From Natronomonas gomsonensis (GTDB taxonomy: Archaea > Halobacteriota > Halobacteria > Halobacteriales > Haloarculaceae): a stretch of DNA of 64,000 bases. Below the pieces are notes generated by a model. That model had not been told where the DNA came from. It worked only from the letters and a program-made list of their open reading frames with translations, and did no database searches. The DNA lies in NCBI RefSeq assembly GCF_024300825.1, contig NZ_CP101323.1, positions 1,674,001 to 1,738,000 on the forward strand. The letters are read 5' to 3'. Shown here piece by piece: positions 9,081-37,922 of this stretch. The position numbers and the translations under genes were made by a program. The first letter of the stretch is position 1. Each line of letters begins with the position of its first letter.

Positions 9081-9692
9081 CTATCGCTTGACCTCCGCCT
9101 GAAGACGGAGGTATGCGCTATCGATCTGTATCAGTTCGATGACTTCCCGCGGCGTGAAGTGTTCGCCAGCCGTCTCGTTGCTCAGCTCGTTGAACTTCCG
9201 GATGAGCTCCTCGTAGATGTAGCCCATCTCCTCGTTTGGGACCTCCTCGGGGTGGAGGTCGATTTCGGCGAACTGCCGGACGACCTTATACAAAAGATCG
9301 GCATCGGCAAGTCGGTCGATCTGGTGGTCGAACGCGAATTTCTCGAAAATCTCCTTCGTCTCCTCGTCGTACTGGTTGATGTAGTACTGGAGGTTTTCTG
9401 CGATATCGTCGGGGTCGTTACACAGAGATTCGAAGGTGTACTCACTGGTATTGTACACCTGTGCATCGGCTGCCTTCTTCAACGAGGGTGCGACGTTCTC
9501 GATACCTTGTTCCTGAAGCTGTTCGTAGCGCTCCAATACCTCGTCCTTGTTCCGCTCAGTCACGCAATCGAGACGTCGAAGAACAGTCAGCGGCAAGATG
9601 ACCTTCTGGTATTCCGACTGCTTGTAGTCCCCTCGGAGAAGATCTGCAATAGACCAGATAAAGTCCGACTTCTCGTTGAAGTTATCGACCAT
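9081..9692 (-). pseudogene. hsdM: Type I restriction methyltransferase HsdM, truncated
   Basis: The frame begins MVDNFNEKSDFIWSIADLLR and proceeds through YQKVILPLTVLRRLDCV to GEHFTPREVIELIQ, the N-terminal helical domain of HsdM up to the edge of the catalytic domain. The next residues (IDSAYLRLQAEVKR) come from the IS end, then a stop. The SAM-binding and NPPY-containing catalytic part is missing, so the gene is dead. No hsdR or hsdS remains in the window. The ATG at 9692 is chosen because upstream residues look untranslated. Confidence 0.85.
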
Positions 9693-9740
9693 TGTACGGT
9701 GGAAGGTAAGTGTGTATGATAAACGCCACGGAGTGCACAC

Positions 9741-14188: not shown

Positions 14189-15004
14189 TCACCACCAGTC
14201 GTCTCGGTCCGGGAACTCGATGTTGGTACGCCCGACGAACGCGACCGAACACCGACCCTGATACCAGTTCTTGGCGGCATCCCGAATGCGCACGCGCTGT
14301 CCTTCGGCGACGACTGTGGCCTGCGATCGGGTCCAGCTGGTGAATTTTGTCGTCCCCGTCTCGTCCTCTAACAGCCCGACTTGGGCCATCTTCGGACTCG
14401 ACGGCTCCCAGAGGGTCTTCACCGTCGCCTCGATATCCACGTACTTCGCTGGCACTTTCTCCAACTCACCGAGCGCCACAATCGCCCCCGGCGCCGCCTG
14501 CACGTCCTCGACCATGTCCAACACGGCATCCTGCATCGACCGACCGCTCTCGACCCGGGCGGCCAACTCACGTTCGATGGCTTCGACACCGAGGCCACCG
14601 CGACACTTCCCGTCCAACCGAATAGCCTGCTTCTTGACTTCCCGCCGCGTCTCGACATCCAACTGCTCACGTGGATCTGCCTCGCTGGGCAGCCCACAGT
14701 GCTTCGCTCGCGTCATCTCCCGGCACAGTTCCTCACGCCGACTTGTCTGCTCTCGATCCGCACGGTCACGAGTCCGCCGCTTTTCGGCTTCTCGCGCTTC
14801 CCACTTCTCTTGAGCTTCGAGCGTCATCCCGTAGGGGTGGTCCTGTTCGTCAGCCGCCGCAATCGCATCACGAACGTCCGAGTCGATCTTCGCCTGGGTC
14901 TGCAACTCTACCGTGGGTCGCAGCTCCGGGGTGTCCTCAGTTGCTTCTTGTTCTGTGTCCTGTTCGACCGAGACCTTTTCACGAATTGGGTTGTTACGTT
15001 GCAT
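14189..15004 (-). CDS. RPA-like single-stranded DNA-binding protein (OB fold)
   Basis: The 271-residue protein has an N-terminal charged, coiled-coil-like region (LEAQEKWEAREAEKRRTRDR), then a helix-rich zone and a C-terminal OB fold: YVDIEATVKTLWEPSSPKMA, QVGLLEDETGTTKFTSWTRS, VRIRDAAKNWYQGRCSVAF. The OB part matches haloarchaeal RPA41-like proteins found on plasmids. I chose the ATG at 15004 (MQRNNPIREKV). The longer start at 15124 would translate a GC hairpin leader. It likely serves replication of the element together with PolB and PrimPol. Confidence 0.82.
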   Translation of the reverse strand: MQRNNPIREKVSVEQDTEQEATEDTPELRPTVELQTQAKIDSDVRDAIAAADEQDHPYGMTLEAQEKWEAREAEKRRTRDRADREQTSRREELCREMTRAKHCGLPSEADPREQLDVETRREVKKQAIRLDGKCRGGLGVEAIERELAARVESGRSMQDAVLDMVEDVQAAPGAIVALGELEKVPAKYVDIEATVKTLWEPSSPKMAQVGLLEDETGTTKFTSWTRSQATVVAEGQRVRIRDAAKNWYQGRCSVAFVGRTNIEFPDRDDWW

Positions 15005-15035
15005 TGGTCTACACCAGACCTGAAGGCGCTCTTCG

Positions 15036-15080
15036 AGCGTCCGACACCCGCGTCTCCACCGCGGGTTTTCCACAGAATCG
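15036..15080 (-). promoter_or_regulatory. Hairpin leader upstream of the RPA-like gene
   Basis: On the minus strand ACCCGCG and CGCGGGT are separated by seven bases (plus strand about 15046-15068), preceded by an A-run. It lies 40-65 bases upstream of the start. It differs in sequence from the GACGG hairpins of other genes but sits in a similar place. Confidence 0.35.
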
Positions 15081-15129
15081 ACCCAACCAGCCATGGCTCC
15101 GACGTCACCGACTGACGCCGTCACCGAGG

Positions 15130-16130
15130 TGCCCGCGCCGCGCCTTCACGCCGGACTCTGTCCGGCGCGGCGCGGCACCGACGGCCATCCCACACAGACG
15201 AGTTCGGGGGTGAACCTCGAGGTGAGCGCGCGCTCACCGCCGTATACCCAGCCGGTCACCGCGGGTCGTCGCCGCAAGCCCCGTCCGTCATCGACGCAAC
15301 GGAAGCGCCGCGGCGACGAGACGGCACGGCCGGGGGGTATACGGTGGTGAACGGCCTCGCATACGGCCACAGCGACGGAGCAGAGGGCGAGCCCCGCCGG
15401 ACCCGTTCGGGGCCGGACCCGCGCGAGCCTGTCCCGTCCGTCGCCAGACGCAACGGAAACGCCTCGCGCGGCACGCCGGCCGCGGACGGCATGCCCGCGG
15501 CAGCGATGCCCGTCGCGACGGAGTTCGAGCGCACGCCCGGCCGGCAGCGCAGCCGATCCCGAGGAACTCCCGGACCCGGGGCGACCGAAGGTGAGCACGG
15601 CGAACCGCCGGTCGCCGCGGCAGCCCGGAGGCCACTCGGGACGAGGGCAATTGCCCGAGCGGCAAGCAGCCCGTCCCGGACCGCGCAGGCGGCCACGTCT
15701 GAACCGCCGTCCGTCGGCGCGACCGCATTCAGGGAGCGCCGACGCAACGGCCGGTGAAGATGCAGTCGTCCCGGCGCCGGTCGAATCCGGTTGCGGGCCG
15801 AGCGCTCGCAGGCCCGCTCTCGGGTGCGGCCGGTATCGGGCGACTGCACTCGGCCCGACCCGGCCCCGTGACCGTGTCCCGTCCGTCGCCAGACGCAACG
15901 GAAACGCGAAAGCCCGGGCCCGGCAGGAACGGACTGCCGGCCGGAGCGCGCACAACCCGAGGAGTCACCCCCGAACGTACGCTGGGACACACCGAGTTCT
16001 GACACACTGACACGAGCCCGAACCGCTACTGGGTGGCGCGTGCTGAATCGGCGTGCCGAGAACGCGCGAGGCGGGCGGGGTGGGCGGTGGCCACCCCGTC
16101 GGGTTGGGGCGGGACTGAACGACGGTCCCA
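15130..16130. repeat. Very GC-rich non-coding island with repeats and palindromes
   Basis: About 1 kb is far richer in G+C than its surroundings. Frames in it encode Arg/Pro/Ala-rich, non-acidic sequence, unlike any haloarchaeal gene here, so it is probably non-coding. A repeat with the core TCCGTTGCGTC (minus strand) followed by GACGGACGGG occurs three times (near 15278-15305, 15428-15464, 15872-15903). Two of the copies extend identically for over 30 bases. A perfect 18-bp palindrome lies at 15221-15238 (GGTGAGCGC/GCGCTCACC) and a 7-bp stem at 15146-15162. The role is unknown. Confidence 0.6.
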
Positions 16131-19877: not shown

Positions 19878-20804
19878 TTAGTCCTCTAGGACGTCGATAA
19901 GCTGTTCTGCCGTCCGACTGATTCGTCCAAGCCGGTCCCGGACGACCGATGCGTCGTCCGACTCCCAGGCGGCCAGATAGAACGCGGACCCACTCGTGTC
20001 CAGTCCGACGTAGCGACCGACGACGTAGGCGATGCTCTCGGCTTCGACTTCTCGCTTCGCCCGTTCCGTCTCGTCGTCGACATCGCTGTGCAACAGAGCG
20101 TGGGCGTACTCGTGGATGAGCGTCCGAGCGAGGTCAGCCTCGTTCGACCGATCACGCACCTTCACCTGTGCGTTCCCGTCTGGATGCTCTGGATACGTAC
20201 AGACGCCGTTTGCGTCCGGATGCGGCCACGCCGAGTCGTCGACCACGTGAACCGTTACATCCAGCGCGGCAGCAGCGTCGGTGAGTTGACTGACGAGCGT
20301 TCCGGCGTCGCCCGTCGCAGCCGTCTCTAGCTCGGGCAGGGGCTCACCGTCTGTCTGCGAGATGTCGAAGACAGGTGCGGGATTGAAGCCGACGAGACCG
20401 CGCGACCACTCTTCGGGGTCGGTCTCATCGTAGTCACAGTCAATCTGCTCGTGGTAGGATGGCGAGTTCTCGCATTCGGGACACCGCTGAGCAATGATTG
20501 GCGCCCAGATCCAGATGGCTGACTCGCCCTCTGTGACGTGCCGATCGAATTCTTCCTGCCAGGTCCGATAGCCCGCGACGCGTGTCGCCTCCGGACATTG
20601 CTGTTTGATGAGCAGCGTGTTTCGATACGAGTAGTCGTGGAACTGAATCTGGGCATCAAGCCACGCTTGGAACGCTTCACTGGCCTGTGCGTCGTTGACG
20701 GCCGCGACGAGGTCCTCGACCCACTGTTCGATCGTGCTATGCATCTCCTCGGATCGTGTGTCGGACTCGGTGAATGAGACCGACGCATCACTGGTCGTAG
20801 CCAT
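19878..20804 (-). CDS. ArdC-like ssDNA-binding protein with ImmA/IrrE metallopeptidase domain
   Basis: The 308-residue protein has an N-terminal ArdC-type ssDNA-binding domain (VAGYRTWQEEFDRHVTEGES then AIWIWAP), a Cys pair (RCPECENS) and a C-terminal zinc peptidase with HEYAHALLH (about residue 231) and a downstream Glu (EVEAESIAYVVGRYV). ArdC proteins protect incoming conjugative DNA from restriction. The ATG at 20804 is chosen (MATTSDASVSF). A hairpin leader lies 39-62 bases upstream. Confidence 0.88.
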   Translation of the reverse strand: MATTSDASVSFTESDTRSEEMHSTIEQWVEDLVAAVNDAQASEAFQAWLDAQIQFHDYSYRNTLLIKQQCPEATRVAGYRTWQEEFDRHVTEGESAIWIWAPIIAQRCPECENSPSYHEQIDCDYDETDPEEWSRGLVGFNPAPVFDISQTDGEPLPELETAATGDAGTLVSQLTDAAAALDVTVHVVDDSAWPHPDANGVCTYPEHPDGNAQVKVRDRSNEADLARTLIHEYAHALLHSDVDDETERAKREVEAESIAYVVGRYVGLDTSGSAFYLAAWESDDASVVRDRLGRISRTAEQLIDVLED

Positions 20805-20842
20805 GAAAATCATCGAAACAACGGCACGCGGGCCGATTCGAA

Positions 20843-28465: not shown

Positions 28466-31400
28466 ATGGCGACGGAATCTGTTCCCGCCGAATCCCCTGA
28501 CAAACCGTGGTCGTACCTCCAAATCCAGCCAAGTACGGACCGACTCGACACGAACGCCCTCACCGATACGTTCCAGCGACTCCACGCCCTTGCTCCATCG
28601 CTCGAAATCGAAGTCCGACTCGTCGCTGACGACGATGGTCTTCAGTTCTACGTCGGCGCCGCGAGCGAACACGCGTCCACACTCCGCCAAACGCTCCGCC
28701 GACTCTTCCCGAGTGAGGCGAAGATCACTGACACATCCCCACCACCAACACCGCCAGAGGCGCCCGATACGGCGCTCGAACTGCTTGGCCGAGGAGAGCG
28801 TCACGACGACTGGCAAACACGATTACAGCCGGTCCTTCGCGACGACGAGACGCCACAGTTCCCGCTGGCAGCCGTCGTCGACACGCTCGCTACTACGGAC
28901 AGCACGGTCGTCTATCAGGCACTGCTCACGCCGAAACGGGATTGGCGGGCGACCGCCGACGTTCGCATCGACCAACTCGAACGCGACCGCGACACGCTCG
29001 GCCAGCGACTGTTCGCGTTCCTCGAAAATGATGTCGACGTCGACCCGAACCCCACAACTGAGGATCCGAAACACCGCGAACGCATCGAGTCGATTCGAGC
29101 CGCCGACAAGCGGCGGTCCTTCGTCGTCAACGCGCGTGCTGTCGCAAAGGGCCCCGACGCCAGGATGACGCTTCGGGAACTCGCCAACGCCTTCACGCCT
29201 GCCAGCGGGTCGTTCTACGAGATTCGCCATCGACTCCATACCGACGAAGAAGCCACAGCGAACGTCGCCGAGCAAATCGAGAGCCGTGACTGCGTCACCG
29301 AACAGTCGCTCACGACCCGATTGCGCCAGCGACTACCGTTGACGGACAACCGAAGCCCGGCTATCGTCGCGGATCCCTCGACTGTCCCGAACTTTTGTCT
29401 GCTCGATGGCGACGCGCTCACCGAAGCAGGGCGACGAGCGATGGAGGCCACACCTGACGAACGAACGGGCGTCCCCATCCCGGAAGACGATCTTCTCAAC
29501 CAGTACAACGAGGGGATGCTACTCGGCTATCCGCTGACGACCGACGACGAACCCATCGATACACCGGTTGCCCTTCCACCGTCGCTCCAACCACTCCACG
29601 CGGCGTGGTTCGGAAAAACCGGCTCGGGGAAATCGACCGCGCTCATCAACGCGATGTTGGAAAACACACGGGCGACTGAGGGCGCGGATATCCTCATCGA
29701 CCCGAAAGGCGATGGGATGCCAGTCGAGTACCTTCGGGCCCACTACGCGGAGTACGGCGATCTTGACGACGTGTACTACTTCGACTGCACGGAGGTGCTG
29801 CCAGCGATTTCGTTTTTCGACATCCGCGATCAACTCGAAGACGGCATCGACCGAACCACCGCTGTCGAGGACGTCGTTGACCACTACATCGAGATTCTCG
29901 TCGGCATCATGGGCCGAGACCGCTTCGAGCAGGCGGTCCGGTCGCCGGACATCATCAAGTACCTCGTGAAGGCGATGTTCGACCCCGTCCACGGCGATGA
30001 CGCCTTCTCACACCGGGAACTGCAGGACGCCACGCGGCGAATGCACGATACGCGGGACGCCCCGCCCGTCGTTGATGCGGACCTCCAACAGTTGCTCAGC
30101 GGCGTCGCGGCCAACAGCAAGCGGTCCTTCGATGAACTGATGCAGGGCGTCGCCAACCGCATCGAGAAGATTCCGCTCGACGACCGCCTCGCACAACTGT
30201 TCAACAACGTCCCCGAAGGCGATGACCCACACTTCGACTTCCGGGAGGTAGTCGACGAGAATTCGGTCGTTATCATCGACACAGGCGGCCTTCGAACGGA
30301 GAGTCAGCGGGCGATCACGCTGGTCGTCCTCTCACAGCTGTGGACCGCCCTCCAGCGCCGCGCCCAAACGACCGACGATGACGACCCACCGCTCGTGAAC
30401 CTGTATCTCGAAGAGGCGGCAAGCGTGGGCACCTCTGGATTGTTGACCGACCTCCTCGCACAGTCGCGGTCCTTCGGCCTCTCGATGACGCTCGCAATGC
30501 AGTTCCCAGCCCAGCTCCGACAGGCCGACCAGGAAGCCTACGCCGAACTGCTGAACAACGTCTCAACGATCGTCACGGGCAACGTCGCTATTGACGACGA
30601 CCTCGCGAAGCGCCTGGCCACCGAGGAGATGCCACCCAGCGAAGTAGCGAACCGGCTACGTGCGCTCCGACGCGGCCAGTGGATGGCGTCGTTGCCGTCA
30701 CGGTTCGGCGTTGACGAACCTCGGCCGTTTCTCTTGGAGAGTGCGCCCATTCCATCGGGCCATCCTGAGAGCGATGAACTGTTCTCGGATGCGAAAGGAA
30801 CAGCGTTTGAGGCAGCCTTCGACGTTGTCCAAGACCGTAGTCGACTGGAACACGGTCTTGATATCGCGCTCAACACACGCCAGTCGACGATGCAGCGCCA
30901 CGCTGCGACGACTGACTCCGTTGCTACATCTTCTGAGCCTAATCTCGAGACAGTTGAAGCCGAGACCGTTGACGAAGATGCCCGCGTTGATTCCGCGCTT
31001 CCCTACACGAATCGCCTGCCCAATCCCGTCGAATACGACGACGAAAGACACGCTCTCGTCTGTACGAGTTGTGAGACGAGATTCGACCCCACCTCAGAGG
31101 GGATGCGAAACACGATTCGTTGTTGTCACACGCTCGACGATGTTGCTCGAGACGAGGTGCCAGTCTGTGAGTTGAATCTGAAACTCTCGGTTGCTGAGCG
31201 TCGACAGAGCGCCTACACAGACGCGCAGTTACGGTTCCTGCAGGCGGTGTATTCGGCGCACCAACGACGGTTCGACCCGGACGTTGAATACGACCTCCTG
31301 TACGACAGCATGGTGCGATTGCAAGAGTACACGGATGTCGGGCAAGCGGAGGTGCAGGAACTCCTCGATGCAGGACTGTTGGCAGAGGACTGTACGTATC

Positions 31401-31945
31401 CCCACAAGCTGTACACGGTCACGCCGGAAGGCCGTGAGGAAGCGAAGATTCGACATCGTGAGGGCATCGCCCACGGTGACGGGAAGGGCGATTTGAGTGA
31501 ATCGAGTTTCCACGTTGCGATGGTAGAACTGCTTCGCCGCTACATCGAAGAAGCGTTCGTCAAGGACGATGACTCGGCTGCTGTTGAGGCCGTTTCGTAT
31601 CACGAGGTTGGCTCTCACCGCCTTGATGTCGCGGGATTAGATTCTGACGGCGAGGTGGTTGTCACGGGTGAGGCCGAACGGTCGAACCATGATACGCTCC
31701 GTGCTGTTCCCGAGGATTACGACAAAATGGCGTCTCACGACCCCGAGGCGGCGATTTGGCTCGTCAAGAACCGGGATGGGGGCCACGATGTCTTGGACGC
31801 GTTGAATGACCCACCGGAGGGTGAGGTTCGCGTCGAAAAGGAATACAGTCGAAGTTCACCACCGCAACGATTCAAAATCGACGAACCGGGGTTCACGGAG
31901 ATGTTCACGTTCCAGTATCTTCGTGACTCCGTCTTAGATTCTTGA
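28466..31945 (+). CDS. Conjugation ATPase (VirD4/TraC/HerA-like) with C-terminal extension
   Basis: The 1159-residue protein has a Walker A (AAWFGKTGSGKSTALINAM, about residues 378-395), a later LVNLYLEEAAS Walker B-like block (about 645) and a strand VVIIDTGG before it. This is the architecture of coupling-protein or VirB4-like DNA-transfer ATPases of haloarchaeal elements. Towards the C-terminus are a zinc-like CTSCETRF site, a winged-helix region and a terminal domain with HRLDVAGLDSDGEVVVTGEA, which has a PD-(D/E)xK-like D...ExE arrangement. It is encoded away from the pilin-like genes. Confidence 0.82.
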   Translation: MATESVPAESPDKPWSYLQIQPSTDRLDTNALTDTFQRLHALAPSLEIEVRLVADDDGLQFYVGAASEHASTLRQTLRRLFPSEAKITDTSPPPTPPEAPDTALELLGRGERHDDWQTRLQPVLRDDETPQFPLAAVVDTLATTDSTVVYQALLTPKRDWRATADVRIDQLERDRDTLGQRLFAFLENDVDVDPNPTTEDPKHRERIESIRAADKRRSFVVNARAVAKGPDARMTLRELANAFTPASGSFYEIRHRLHTDEEATANVAEQIESRDCVTEQSLTTRLRQRLPLTDNRSPAIVADPSTVPNFCLLDGDALTEAGRRAMEATPDERTGVPIPEDDLLNQYNEGMLLGYPLTTDDEPIDTPVALPPSLQPLHAAWFGKTGSGKSTALINAMLENTRATEGADILIDPKGDGMPVEYLRAHYAEYGDLDDVYYFDCTEVLPAISFFDIRDQLEDGIDRTTAVEDVVDHYIEILVGIMGRDRFEQAVRSPDIIKYLVKAMFDPVHGDDAFSHRELQDATRRMHDTRDAPPVVDADLQQLLSGVAANSKRSFDELMQGVANRIEKIPLDDRLAQLFNNVPEGDDPHFDFREVVDENSVVIIDTGGLRTESQRAITLVVLSQLWTALQRRAQTTDDDDPPLVNLYLEEAASVGTSGLLTDLLAQSRSFGLSMTLAMQFPAQLRQADQEAYAELLNNVSTIVTGNVAIDDDLAKRLATEEMPPSEVANRLRALRRGQWMASLPSRFGVDEPRPFLLESAPIPSGHPESDELFSDAKGTAFEAAFDVVQDRSRLEHGLDIALNTRQSTMQRHAATTDSVATSSEPNLETVEAETVDEDARVDSALPYTNRLPNPVEYDDERHALVCTSCETRFDPTSEGMRNTIRCCHTLDDVARDEVPVCELNLKLSVAERRQSAYTDAQLRFLQAVYSAHQRRFDPDVEYDLLYDSMVRLQEYTDVGQAEVQELLDAGLLAEDCTYPHKLYTVTPEGREEAKIRHREGIAHGDGKGDLSESSFHVAMVELLRRYIEEAFVKDDDSAAVEAVSYHEVGSHRLDVAGLDSDGEVVVTGEAERSNHDTLRAVPEDYDKMASHDPEAAIWLVKNRDGGHDVLDALNDPPEGEVRVEKEYSRSSPPQRFKIDEPGFTEMFTFQYLRDSVLDS

Positions 31946-31999: not shown

Positions 32000-34240
32000 C
32001 TACCGGGCAGCCCGTCGGCCCAGAACGAATACGAGTAGGGCGATTAGTACCGCCCCAAATGCCGTATTAGCCGTTGCCAGCACCTGCCCAAAGCCGAGTG
32101 GAATGTAGTCTCCCATCCCGAGCGTAGTGAACGTTAGCGTACTGAAATAGAGCGATTCTAAGAATAGCTCTGGCTGTTCGGCTATCCGTGCGTATGTTAT
32201 CGGGCGGTCTCCAACTGGCTGAAGCCATTCGCCGAGCGGATAGAGCAAGGCGATGAATACAATGAAGCTCGTGCTACCAGCGATAACACGCCAGGGACTT
32301 TCACCGTACAGAAGCGTCGCTCGTGCGACCTTTGCTCGACTCCAGCGCGCTCCTGCAATCACGCGTTCTTCGACGGTGTCTGCAGACTGTGTGGCATCGC
32401 TCCAGTACTCTCGCTTCTGAAGGTCTTGTCGACGGACGAAACACTGTGACTGCAACCGAGGACGAGCAGCCCTTCCTGCGAGTTCTTCAAGCGCCCGATA
32501 GACGCTTTTTGCTTTGTCTATATCCACCGCATCGGAATCGTCCCCGTAGCTCGGGTCGTAGATACAGACCGGTTGTGAGCGGATTGCGGATACCGTGTGA
32601 GGAGACGAATCAATCGCTGTGGAGGGCCGCCCAAGAAATTGCGTGTTATCGTCGATTTGGACATCTCCGAGAACCGCACCGAAGAGCTTCGACCCACGCA
32701 AATCCGCGCCGAATAGCATCGCTCGACTCAAAAACGTGGATTCGAGATTTGAGTCTTGAAGCACGGTGTTCTGGAGTGCTGCCTCGGTCAAGTCGGCGTG
32801 TTCAAAATCAGAGTTGGAAAGCTCCGCATCTTCAGCGAGGAAATCAGCAAAGGTACCCTCTTGCAACTGAACCCCTTCTGAGACCGCTGCTGCATTGAGG
32901 TTGATTTCTTCCCTGACGGTTGAGTGTTCTAACGAGAGCGCCTCCCGTATGGTAGCGTTGTCAAATCTGAGGGACCCATCGACTCGTGTCTGATCCATAT
33001 CGAAGTATTTGGCTGTCGCATCTGAGAACACTGCCTCGTCACCAAATGAAGCGTCTGTGAAGGTGGCCCCGTGCTCAAATACGGCCCCTTCGAACCAACT
33101 GTCTGATTCGAAGACGGTATCGGTGAATCCAGCGTGGCTCTCAAATCGTGCGGGCCGATCGCTTTCATCTAACGCACTCGTCTCATCACGACCGAAAATG
33201 ACTCGCTCTTCAAACACCGCTTCCTCGAATGTTATCGGTCGAGAACGCTCTTGACGACGAAATACGGCGGCCAAAAATATCGCTACGCCTGTAATTCGGG
33301 CCTGCTCAAAGGTGATACGGTCATTACAAATTGTTTCATTGAACGACACTGCGACTCTTCCAAGATACATTCCGCCAGCATATCCGTACTGTCGTGCCCG
33401 TGAACTGGCTCGAGATGGGAGAGGTGGAGCCTCCGTTTCGAACACTGCTTTACTGAAAATCGCTTGGTTCTGGAAAACTGTACGCCCAAACCCGACTCCC
33501 GCTTCGAATTTTGCCCTCGTAAACCGCGTGATTCCTCCGATTTCGGCTCCTGAAAACAGCGTTGTGTGCTCGAAGACTGCCCCCGTGAAATTGAGCGCCC
33601 CCTCGCAGGTTATCTCCCTGAAGAGCGCATGTCGCTCAAACCGCGATTCCTTGCCGTATATCCCGGAGGCAATCAGTCCGTCAAAATACGCTTCTTTCTC
33701 GAAAGTTGCCTCGGAAACACTAATTGACCCATCGACACGGGCACCTTGGAGCCTAACGTGAGCCTTGATTGTTCCCTCGGTTAAACTGACATCCCCATCG
33801 ACCTGTATGTGTGAGAGGTAAATATCTGCATCTGGTCCATCTCCAAGTTGTTCTTCACTAAGAGAAAGCTCCGAAAACCGAGCCCCAATGAACTGCCGCG
33901 CTGGAAACCGTCCAGCTTCATCCCGCTGTGCCACCTTCTCGTTAAGCCCTTTGTGCGCTTCACCTGATTCTTCCTCAGTATCTGGTGCAGTTACGCTGTT
34001 CACTTGACCGACGAGTTCTTCGCTGAGGTCGAGATCTCTGGGCTTCTCTCCCAGTGGGAGATGAAATACACACAACTCGGCATCTTCCGCTTGGTCATGT
34101 GGACAGCTCCAGACGCCGTCTTCGTTCAAGATGTCTTCATCAATATGACATTCGTCTCCATCTTCTCCTCCCCATGTCTGTGGCTTGTCTGGGTCGAACA
34201 CGTACTCACAGGTCCCCTCACTCTCGTTCATTGAAACCAT
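32000..34240 (-). CDS. Pentapeptide-repeat protein with a C-terminal K+-channel-like pore
   Basis: The 746-residue protein has an N-terminal Cys/acidic region, about 450 residues of A(D/N)LxX-like pentapeptide repeats (for example FEKEAYFDGLIASG, AVFEHTTLFSGAEIG, LRGSKLFGAVLG) forming a beta-helix, and two membrane helices at the C-terminus. Between them is the pore sequence TLTFTTLGMGDYIPLG: T-x-G-x-G-D of K+ channels with Met instead of Tyr. The second helix is GAVLIALLVFVLGR. A soluble repeat sensor controlling a pore is a plausible reading. Start at 34240 or 34231 (both ATG). Confidence 0.85.
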   Translation of the reverse strand: MVSMNESEGTCEYVFDPDKPQTWGGEDGDECHIDEDILNEDGVWSCPHDQAEDAELCVFHLPLGEKPRDLDLSEELVGQVNSVTAPDTEEESGEAHKGLNEKVAQRDEAGRFPARQFIGARFSELSLSEEQLGDGPDADIYLSHIQVDGDVSLTEGTIKAHVRLQGARVDGSISVSEATFEKEAYFDGLIASGIYGKESRFERHALFREITCEGALNFTGAVFEHTTLFSGAEIGGITRFTRAKFEAGVGFGRTVFQNQAIFSKAVFETEAPPLPSRASSRARQYGYAGGMYLGRVAVSFNETICNDRITFEQARITGVAIFLAAVFRRQERSRPITFEEAVFEERVIFGRDETSALDESDRPARFESHAGFTDTVFESDSWFEGAVFEHGATFTDASFGDEAVFSDATAKYFDMDQTRVDGSLRFDNATIREALSLEHSTVREEINLNAAAVSEGVQLQEGTFADFLAEDAELSNSDFEHADLTEAALQNTVLQDSNLESTFLSRAMLFGADLRGSKLFGAVLGDVQIDDNTQFLGRPSTAIDSSPHTVSAIRSQPVCIYDPSYGDDSDAVDIDKAKSVYRALEELAGRAARPRLQSQCFVRRQDLQKREYWSDATQSADTVEERVIAGARWSRAKVARATLLYGESPWRVIAGSTSFIVFIALLYPLGEWLQPVGDRPITYARIAEQPELFLESLYFSTLTFTTLGMGDYIPLGFGQVLATANTAFGAVLIALLVFVLGRRAAR

Positions 34241-34400: not shown

Positions 34401-35525
34401 TTATCGCCACCCGAACAGGGAGGATTCATTCTCCTCTTGCAGACTCTCTAGTTCCTCCTCCAAGGCTTGTCGTCGCTCGCGTTCTGCCTCCAGTTCTGCT
34501 TTGAGCTCCTCGTTGGTTTCCATTAACTCGGTTAATCGAGCTTCGAGTGCTTCGATTCGCTCCAATCGTTTCGTTTCTCGCTCACGGAGTTCCGTAGTGG
34601 TAACTCCTGTCTCAACTTCCGGTGGCTCATCTGCTGTTCCAGCGGGGTCATAGAACTCACTTGTCCCCTCAATCGCCCGCTCGATGGTCTTTTCACCGTA
34701 CGTACTCCCATCAGCGAAATGCTGTTCGTCCCACTTCTCACGCATCAGCCCCGAATCACGGAACAACTGATCCATCTGTCGGGAATCACCACCGGTCCAG
34801 AAGGCGAGTAGTGAACACAGCGCCATGTCAGCCTCCGACTGGCTTTCGTAGCCGCTCGTCGATCCTTTCCACAGCGACTGGAATTTTTCGCCGTTGGCTG
34901 CATTCTTCGCTTTCTGAAGGAGTTCGTCGTCTTCGAGACTGCGAGTTGGCGTTGACTTTGGGGTGTCGTTGGTTGAGTCATCCTCCCGCTTCGGCTCGAC
35001 GTACTCTTCGTACACCGACCGAAGCGCCTGTGTACGCGGCTGAATCGTAGTTGGCGTCTCCGCAACGTGGTCGGCTGTGACGGTAAAAAAGCGGGCCGTC
35101 TCGTACAGCTCGAGGTCGTCTTTGCGGTTCCGACCGTCTGGAAGGTCGCCTTCGACGAGCACGTGGAACCCAGTTCCGGACGGGCTGATTTCGGTGAAGG
35201 AATCGAGCGTCTCGATGACGTCGTCGGCCCACTCCTGCGTCGTTTCAGTTTCGGGCACGCGGCAGTCGTCGAGGTCGACACCGACGAAGGGGTCGTCGTC
35301 GGTGAACACGAAGCCGAGCCCGTCTTCGAATGTGGCTCGCTCGCGAGCCGTTTCGAACCCTGCCCAGGTTTCAGGATCCGTCGTCGAGGCGAACTCACCA
35401 GTGCTGGGATTGATCGGAATTTTCGTCGATTTCCCGTCTCGATTTTCCTCTCGCCAACAGAGCCACTGCTCGTGGTCCAACAGGGAGGGTGGGATCTCCT
35501 CACGCGCCGGGAGTGCTTCGGGCAC
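34401..35525 (-). CDS. PrimPol-type primase/polymerase, NrS-1-like
   Basis: The 374-residue protein shows the PrimPol core: an early WLCWREENRDGKSTKIPINP block, the metal site DDPFVGVDLDDC, and the later SPSGTGFHVLVEG His motif. A helical domain (LLQKAKNAANGEKFQSLWKG) resembling phage NrS-1 polymerase helix-bundle follows. The last 80 residues are a strong coiled coil (LEALEARLTELMETNEEL). It would prime replication of the element. It lies next to the TGTAC-rich region, the likely origin. Confidence 0.85.
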   Translation of the reverse strand: MPEALPAREEIPPSLLDHEQWLCWREENRDGKSTKIPINPSTGEFASTTDPETWAGFETARERATFEDGLGFVFTDDDPFVGVDLDDCRVPETETTQEWADDVIETLDSFTEISPSGTGFHVLVEGDLPDGRNRKDDLELYETARFFTVTADHVAETPTTIQPRTQALRSVYEEYVEPKREDDSTNDTPKSTPTRSLEDDELLQKAKNAANGEKFQSLWKGSTSGYESQSEADMALCSLLAFWTGGDSRQMDQLFRDSGLMREKWDEQHFADGSTYGEKTIERAIEGTSEFYDPAGTADEPPEVETGVTTTELRERETKRLERIEALEARLTELMETNEELKAELEAERERRQALEEELESLQEENESSLFGWR

Positions 35526-36372: not shown

Positions 36373-36873
36373 TCACAATCCGTCCAATTGCCAGATTCCT
36401 TCGTGAGCCAGCTCAAAGGTCTCCAAAGCGATGCCAGATTCACCAGCGACAAGTGTCGGACCAACCCAGCGTACTGGCTTGGCGCCTCGACACTCCCAGC
36501 CGCGGGCCTCTATTCCATGTTCGTCAAGCAGTATTAAGCGGATGTTCCGCTTCTCACCTGAGCCATTGAGCCACTCTTCGTACCACGTCCACAGCGCCTT
36601 CTCTTCGGTCAGCCCGCGGCGCAGTTCAAGTGTCGGTGAGGTCGTCGCGAACTGGCGATCATCATTACTCTTTTTCGTGGAATCAAGCTCACCACTTCGG
36701 CCCAGTCCGAACAGTCGCTGCCAGAAGGAACGGTCGTCGGCATCATCCTCCTTGCGCTCGGCGATGGACATCGACAGACCGCGAACTTCACTAAACCCTC
36801 CAACGACCATCGTATCTATCTCGACTCGAAAGCGGAACTTCGGGAGCGGATCGTCACGCTCGATTCCCGACAT
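36373..36873 (-). CDS. Phage-tail-tube-like protein (T4 gp19/eCIS tube family)
   Basis: The 166-residue protein begins FRFRVEIDTMVVGGFSEVRG then LSMSI, and ends GPTLVAGESGIALETFELAH EG. This is the tail-tube fold signature (F-V-I-D-G...GF-S-E-V-G-L and the terminal LVL..EG). The middle contains a Lys/Asp-rich insertion. It is the second of two tube-like genes in tandem. Confidence 0.78.
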   Translation of the reverse strand: MSGIERDDPLPKFRFRVEIDTMVVGGFSEVRGLSMSIAERKEDDADDRSFWQRLFGLGRSGELDSTKKSNDDRQFATTSPTLELRRGLTEEKALWTWYEEWLNGSGEKRNIRLILLDEHGIEARGWECRGAKPVRWVGPTLVAGESGIALETFELAHEGIWQLDGL

Positions 36874-36915
36874 TAGCAGTCCCCCTCGAACAGATTGGTA
36901 GTACTCGCTGCCATC

Positions 36916-37596
36916 TCATCCAGAACGCTCTGTCTTCCCATCACCAGATCGATTTTCCTTGCGAGAAGTGTGCTCGGATTTTTTCTTTGGGTCCCCCTCA
37001 GTATCCTGTTGGTTTCGACGGGGTTTCTCCACCTCCTCAGCGGTTTCCGTCCGAGATTTTTCGACGGAATCAGCCCTCGTATCTGCCTCGAACACGGTCG
37101 CACTCTCGGGTTTAGTCTTCGTTGATTTCGTCTGTGTCGTTCCGCCGTCTTCTTTGGGGGAATCTCGTTGCATCCCTTCGTGAGCGATAACGAGTCGTTC
37201 GATAGCAACTGCGTCGCGGTTCGCGTCGAGTTGGGGACCATGGTAGCGAGCCGGCCAAGCTTGCTTGAACTCCCATCGAGGCCCCGGATTGCCCTCCTCA
37301 TCAAGGAGCACGATGGCGACATTGCCTCGGGCTTCGTCGACTTGACCCTGTTCAACCTTCTTACGCCACTCGTAGAGGACGACAGAGTCGTCGGTCACCC
37401 CGCTTTCCAGTACGAGTGGCCCGTACTCGTTTAATCCCCACAGCTTTCGGCGGGTGGGCGGGTCGTTACCTTCCCGGTATTTGACAACGTTCGTTCGATT
37501 CTCGGGGATGTGACAGCGGCTAAAGCCCGCTTTCACGATGCCGTCGAGTTCAAGGATGAACCGCATTTGCCGGTAGGGGCCGTGTCTATCGGGCAT
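36916..37596 (-). CDS. Phage-tail-tube-like protein with charged disordered tail
   Basis: The 226-residue protein has a tube-fold start (MRFILELDGIVKAGFSRCHI) and RLVIAHEGMQRD end of the folded part (about residue 140). The last 85 residues are a Lys/Glu/Thr/Arg-rich disordered tail (KKKSEHTSRKENRSGDGKTE). The second tube gene follows about 40 bases later. ATG at 37596 is used. The GTG at 37602 is also possible. Confidence 0.78.
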   Translation of the reverse strand: MPDRHGPYRQMRFILELDGIVKAGFSRCHIPENRTNVVKYREGNDPPTRRKLWGLNEYGPLVLESGVTDDSVVLYEWRKKVEQGQVDEARGNVAIVLLDEEGNPGPRWEFKQAWPARYHGPQLDANRDAVAIERLVIAHEGMQRDSPKEDGGTTQTKSTKTKPESATVFEADTRADSVEKSRTETAEEVEKPRRNQQDTEGDPKKKSEHTSRKENRSGDGKTERSG

Positions 37597-37922
37597 CGTC
37601 ACACTACCTGCATGCGAACCTTCATTGCTCGCGTAGTATTCTCTAGCATGGTTCGTCTACAATATGACCGTTAGTGATAAGAACCCATGTATTTGACACC
37701 TGTGCTGAGTCGATTCACCAGCCACATTGAATCTGCCCGTTGTAGGTTGGAACACCACACACTAGTGAGTGTTGAGCCGTCGCCGCACAACACCTAGTTA
37801 GTGACAATTCCATCTCCATCGAATTCGAGTCGGTCAACGCTCCAAAGGAAGCAGCGGCCCGGAATCTATATGTTCACGAATTGATACACCGTTCCTGACT
37901 CGGTGATGATTTCATTCCTCTC
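37597..37922. other. Gene-free stretch upstream of the tube gene
   Basis: About 325 bases between two minus-strand genes. No ORF, RNA or strong repeat seen. It should hold the promoter of the tube genes. Confidence 0.3.

Follow-up and report, generated by a model that had tools for sequence, protein, structure and literature searches.

Organization of the channel gene

At 32000-34240 the minus strand of the window, by which we mean the 64,000-nucleotide stretch of Natronomonas gomsonensis contig NZ_CP101323.1 analysed here (positions 1,674,001 to 1,738,000), holds a single uninterrupted open reading frame of 746 codons (746 aa) that encodes pentapeptide repeats followed by a two-helix, K+-channel-like pore. 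Because its relatives start at the second Met, which is the fourth codon (34231), the true protein is probably the 743 aa product of that start, from which all residue numbers given below are counted. Read from the N-terminus, and always on the minus strand, an alignment of relatives delimits a Cys/His motif (C8, C28, C43-P-H45 and C54-x-x-H57; 34061-34210), and Pfam, AlphaFold and Foldseek delimit a right-handed pentapeptide-repeat β-helix of ~430 residues (approximately residues 113-540; 32612-33895). The β-helix is followed by a basic helical linker (residues 571-645; 32297-32521), TM1 (residues 646-667; 32231-32296, from AlphaFold), a pore helix (residues 688-702; 32126-32170, from AlphaFold and superposition), the selectivity filter TLGMGD (32108-32125) and TM2 (residues 715-742; 32006-32089, from AlphaFold), just past which the protein terminates.

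The Pfam matches to Pentapeptide_3 (E 1e-22), Pentapeptide (E 1.4e-8) and Ion_trans_2 (PF07885; E 3.4e-8 over residues 692-743, 33.7 bits against a cut-off of 22.5) all exceed the curated cut-offs, and the domain calls therefore lie far beyond chance. At least eight tandem pentapeptides forming a β-helix (PF00805, PF13576) are present according to Pfam, the structure model and PDB matches to pentapeptide proteins, as are the TM1, pore helix, filter and TM2 of a PF07885 channel. Structure was predicted for the monomer. The full AlphaFold model, made with 41 aligned members, has a mean pLDDT of 84.8 (>90 in the pore) and arranges the chain as β-helix (~113-540), helices (571-640), TM1, pore helix (688-701) and TM2. 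The linker and pore modelled alone reach a pLDDT of 88.0, and their superposition on KirBac3.1 gives Z 11.4 (88 residues, 2.3 Å). A profile of the linker and pore run against the PDB finds K+ channels, namely TOK1 (2.5e-10), KirBac (6.7e-9) and KcsA (2.8e-7). Structural alignment of the full model, which is swamped by unrelated β-helices, pairs it with HetL (Z 16.8, 219 residues, 2.5 Å). The first-pass annotation, which had described about 450 residues of pentapeptide-like repeats ahead of a two-helix pore and had asked whether a structural model would contain that pore, is borne out on both counts; to it we add the N-terminal Cys/His motif, the basic linker and a very wide family distribution.

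The Cys/His motif occupies the first 60 residues with the spacing C8-x19-C28-x14-CPH-x8-CxxH. All 41 aligned members have C54 and H57, and a similar motif is found in most of the bacterial members displayed, Vibrio included; judged from its residues the motif is zinc-like and may bind metal. The linker carries a net charge of +5 while the rest of the protein is acidic, is more basic than the remaining N-terminal part in all 105 of 105 archaeal members, and ends in a conserved YGE(S)PWR segment directly before TM1. Basic charge on both sides of the pore, in the linker ahead of TM1 and in the tail behind TM2, set against an acidic N-terminal part, suggests that the long N-terminal part lies on the cytoplasmic side.

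Filter variation across the family

The filter codons ACG CTC GGG ATG GGA GAC (32125-32108, minus strand) encode TLGMGD in place of the canonical TxGYG, and the Met for Tyr exchange reported by the first-pass annotation is real in the sequence, since an ATG codon is read there and Met recurs at five other loci. With Met at the place of the filter Tyr, K+ selectivity may be lost. The filters of 123 archaeal members, which are sampled sequences and not independent of one another, divide into GYG[D/N] (72), Phe (13), Leu (11), Met (6) and eroded or other forms (21), so that GYG[D/N] is missing in 51 of 123 archaeal members compared with none of 36 bacterial ones, all of which keep Tyr. On a tree of 153 rows that includes the filter columns (a filter-free tree retained 63 rows), a minimum of 19 changes is needed between Tyr and non-Tyr, 15 to account for the eroded state and 2 for Met, which would have arisen about twice. 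The window protein sits in a four-row Met clade (SH-aLRT 99) nested in a twelve-row clade whose members include ALGFGD, AFGFGG, TGNYGG and GYGD filters. As the filter is eroded in 18 of the 153 relatives on the tree, conduction is not obligatory in every member.

A second family member in the same genome (locus L183, 6985-8922; C1 ~490984-492921) has pentapeptide repeats and the filter TFVVGP without an Ion_trans_2 match; its relatives in other haloarchaea are ~700 aa long and mostly have GYG-type filters. Two genomes encode tandem giant pentapeptide channels of 1,230-1,353 aa (L064, 4128-8150 and 8995-12687; L196, 3380-7306 and 8047-12108), in each of which one copy has GYGD and the other TLEYV at the filter place. 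The eroded TLEYV-type copies group together with support, which hints at heteromers.

Distribution of the family

At E <= 1e-10, 97 of 293 genomes in the order, from 42 of 87 genera, contain relatives, among which hits confined to the N-terminus may be channel-less pentapeptide proteins. A looser linker-pore profile has matches in 134 of 393 genomes across the phylum, the weakest of these possibly being other channels. When a genome collection was scanned with the single channel sequence no matches were returned; the profile query did find relatives, with members in Vibrio, Endozoicomonas, Pseudoalteromonas, Colwellia and Planctomycetota, and in the bacterial proteins displayed the linker and pore follow a pentapeptide domain that is short. 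Given relatives in archaea, Vibrio, Endozoicomonas and Planctomycetota, the architecture is common and not unique. Phage records gave no match to the window channel protein.

Annotations as 'potassium channel family protein' and 'pentapeptide repeat-containing protein' already exist for stretches of this kind in some NCBI records. Our literature search found no paper measuring or studying any family member, and a 2021 review of pentapeptide-repeat proteins nowhere mentions the terms ion channel or potassium (PMC8145042). The form, of which the first-pass annotation knew no described haloarchaeal system, is also bacterial, and both domains are already annotated in some records. The gene is a member of a widespread, apparently unstudied family in which Met in the pore signature is rare.

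Genomic setting of this copy and of its relatives

To the left of the channel gene lies a TraD/VirD4/HerA-like ATPase identified by Pfam (1159 aa; 28466-31945, plus strand), which carries a long C-terminal extension, and to the right an NrS-1 type primase-polymerase-like protein, likewise from Pfam (374 aa; 34401-35525, minus strand). Relatives of the ATPase are present in 8 of the 20 genus genomes searched, its own included, and in five congeneric genomes the ATPase and NrS-1-type genes adjoin with no channel between them. One of these slots measures only ~250 bp (L209), another holds an enzyme resembling a Cys/Met-metabolism lyase by sequence together with a small ORF (L210), and in the three other congeners the gap contains no convincing gene. 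Because the flanking genes pair up without the channel and the slot is empty in L209, the likeliest reading is that the channel gene was inserted into a variable slot as an accessory gene. Its GC3 of 0.52, compared with ~0.6-0.75 in most larger genes of the window, is among the window's lower values. A variable, mobile-looking setting for this copy is thus supported.

Elsewhere in the window we observed a truncated HsdM with only the N-terminal domain and the start of the methylase, that is, a broken type I restriction gene (9081-9740), a protein with an anti-restriction ArdC N-terminal domain as a further sign of mobile-element content (19878-20813), and a segment whose GC of 0.73 is well over that of the rest of the window (15001-16000). 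Two adjacent T4 gp19-like tail tube genes (36373-37602) lie 2-3 kb upstream of the channel gene; a link to a contractile injection system was dropped, the genome having no match to the PF04984 sheath family, and the pair may be an orphan remnant or an unusual tube.

In L094 an ATPase relative stands next to a channel relative, in divergent orientation and 450 bp away, and in L073 the two are ~4 kb apart; L114 has a weak match. We roughly estimate such co-occurrence at a few times the chance level and read it as shared mobile elements. An AEP-type partner, with the NrS-1-type neighbour supplying the channel with a DNA ligand in the manner of the Hailong protein HalB, was rejected because that gene accompanies the ATPase in five channel-less congeners and is near no other channel locus fetched.

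Across the loci compared, no partner gene is common to the relatives. The commonest Pfam family among 130 immediate neighbours of archaeal members is the Na+/H+ exchanger, at 5 of 130, and four of these five cases were checked and all come from one clade. In those four (L060, L062, L123 and L132), whose channels have GLGD or GYGD filters, the exchanger gene is convergent with the channel gene and within ~15 bp of it. Eight Vibrio members have one common chromosomal setting, many relatives stand amid housekeeping genes, and some have integrases or a nuclease domain of type I restriction type next to them. The 130 neighbouring proteins show no enrichment of defence families, and PADLOC matches there are scattered, with one or two members per family. 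The neighbourhood search proposed in the first-pass annotation thus finds the combination of pentapeptide repeats and channel pore widespread in haloarchaea, with no enrichment for defence.

A probable cytoplasmically gated cation channel

We consider it probable (roughly 0.6) that the gene encodes a cytoplasmically gated, K+-type cation channel of this widespread pentapeptide-repeat family, for which a role in ion or osmotic homeostasis or in stress is likely. This reading is supported by the Pfam matches, the structure model and its superposition on KirBac3.1, the profile matches to K+ channels in the PDB, the charge pattern, the conservation between archaea and bacteria, the ion-transport and housekeeping contexts of relatives, and the slot. 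Against it, Met stands in for the filter Tyr, the filter is eroded in some relatives, and the neighbours of the window gene itself carry no homeostasis signal. In the putative mechanism four subunits would form a two-helix membrane pore of the K+-channel type, with the Cys/His motif, β-helix and basic linker placed in the cytoplasm. A ligand or partner would bind to, or leave, the β-helix or the linker, and this binding or release would act on TM1 via the conserved YGESPWR segment to open the pore, so that K+, and with the Met filter perhaps other cations too, would flow.

A sub-case of this reading, not exclusive of it, is an unselective cation leak channel in which the Met filter passes Na+ plus K+. 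In 30 of 123 archaeal members the filter Tyr gives way to Met, Phe or Leu, and TWIK-1 (KCNK1), to which a phmmer match spans the filter stretch of the window protein, carries Leu at the corresponding position of one repeat and is able to switch selectivity. Phe and Leu at this place are nevertheless tolerated in known K+-selective channels, and we regard the leak as possible but doubtful.

Comparison with HalA and the defence question

The first-pass annotation proposed a defence effector, a membrane pore opened on infection or DNA invasion, and held that wide chromosomal distribution with housekeeping neighbours would refute it. That pattern is largely what we find, with no enrichment of defence families and no match for the channel protein in PADLOC 2023, but a structural match supplies a precedent. 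With the linker-pore model as query, Foldseek places first the PDB entry 9nyi, a complex of HalA with oligodeoxyadenylate, at probability 1.00 and E 0.014 over 197 alignment columns; other K+ channels, KirBac among them, follow closely at E 0.02. When the full model is the query, HalA comes eighth in a list of pentapeptide-repeat proteins (409 columns, E 1.1e-4), and since inclusion of the β-helix lengthens the alignment to 409 columns and improves the E-value ~100-fold, the match probably reaches into the β-helix. According to papers citing Tan et al. 2025, DNA oligomers suppress the HalA ion channel of the Hailong system until phage exonuclease activity relieves the suppression (PMC12265719, PMC12657230, PMC13275509).

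HalA is missing from the complete list of PDB matches to the linker profile at E up to 10, in a PDB sequence set that may not contain HalA, and is not among the best 60 PDB matches for each of three other profile or phmmer queries. Hailong membership by sequence found no support in these PDB profile and phmmer searches. No HalB-like nucleotidyltransferase was recognised near the channel gene by models that a divergent enzyme would escape, and the genome's only PF01909 match is ~870 kb away. As neither a sequence match nor a HalB-like neighbour was found, we treat HalA as a possible functional likeness and not as family. The two would share the linker and pore fold, apparently part of the β-helix, and an ion channel controlled from the cytoplasm; they differ in that the window channel gene has no HalB partner beside it.

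The structural match to HalA is the sole serious lead for a defence role. An anti-phage effector working like HalA would sense with its cytoplasmic part a nucleic-acid or other guard molecule, whose loss or arrival on infection would open the pore and halt the cell. The rank of HalA, the longer and better match with the β-helix, a conserved basic linker that could bind an anionic ligand, the accessory insertion in a mobile-looking region, and the integrases and restriction-type nuclease domain beside some relatives all fit such an effector. The lack of a recognised HalB-like gene, the absence of HalA from sequence results, the blank in PADLOC, the lack of defence enrichment and the housekeeping or ion-transport settings of many relatives do not; nor does the slot in congeners, which is empty, without a convincing gene or filled by the lyase-like enzyme and small ORF, never by defence genes. 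We therefore judge the effector unlikely, and ion homeostasis or stress likelier than defence for this gene. Longer odds still apply to a broader scheme in which haloarchaea hold a large set of β-helix-gated channels with a repeatedly relaxed or lost K+ filter, and some accessory members, the window protein included, would be HalA-like guard channels that infection opens and whose partner would not be recognisable as HalB.

A membrane-anchored pentapeptide-repeat protein whose two helices are no longer a channel and whose β-helix does the work, for instance as a protein-binding or DNA-mimic surface, is improbable, for although eroded-filter relatives with an intact frame arose many times (the 15 parsimony changes above, the TFVVGP member among them) and some pentapeptide-repeat proteins act via their surface, for example on DNA gyrase (PMC8145042), the window protein retains TFTTL ahead of the filter as well as its two glycines and Asp, and its Met is common to a supported clade.

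Known relatives and significance

The closest counterparts of this putative cation channel are annotated pentapeptide-repeat ion-channel proteins (PF00805/PF13576 plus PF07885) on Halalkalicoccus jeotgali plasmids and Vibrio chromosomes, which have the same domain order, Cys/His motif, YGE-motif linker and two-helix pore. Most of the bacterial members sampled are proteins of 305-350 aa whose β-helix is short, and all of those sampled have GYGD, whereas the window protein has a far longer β-helix and GMGD. KirBac3.1 and KcsA share its pore fold, filter position and two helices per subunit, but have Tyr in the filter where the window protein has Met, and the cytoplasmic part of the latter would be N-terminal; in KirBac the main cytoplasmic part is C-terminal and there is no β-helix. 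HetL (3du1), MfpA and Qnr share the quadrilateral β-helix but are soluble, without membrane helices.

An N-terminal β-helix that varies widely in length, mounted on one conserved linker and pore in whole proteins of ~310 to 1,400 aa, would gate in a way that sets it apart from the RCK, cyclic-nucleotide and voltage sensors known in those prokaryotic K+ channels that have been studied. The likeness to HalA in structure suggests a possible origin of a defence channel. With natural filters that carry Tyr, Phe, Leu, Met or none of these within one family, the role of the filter Tyr becomes directly testable.
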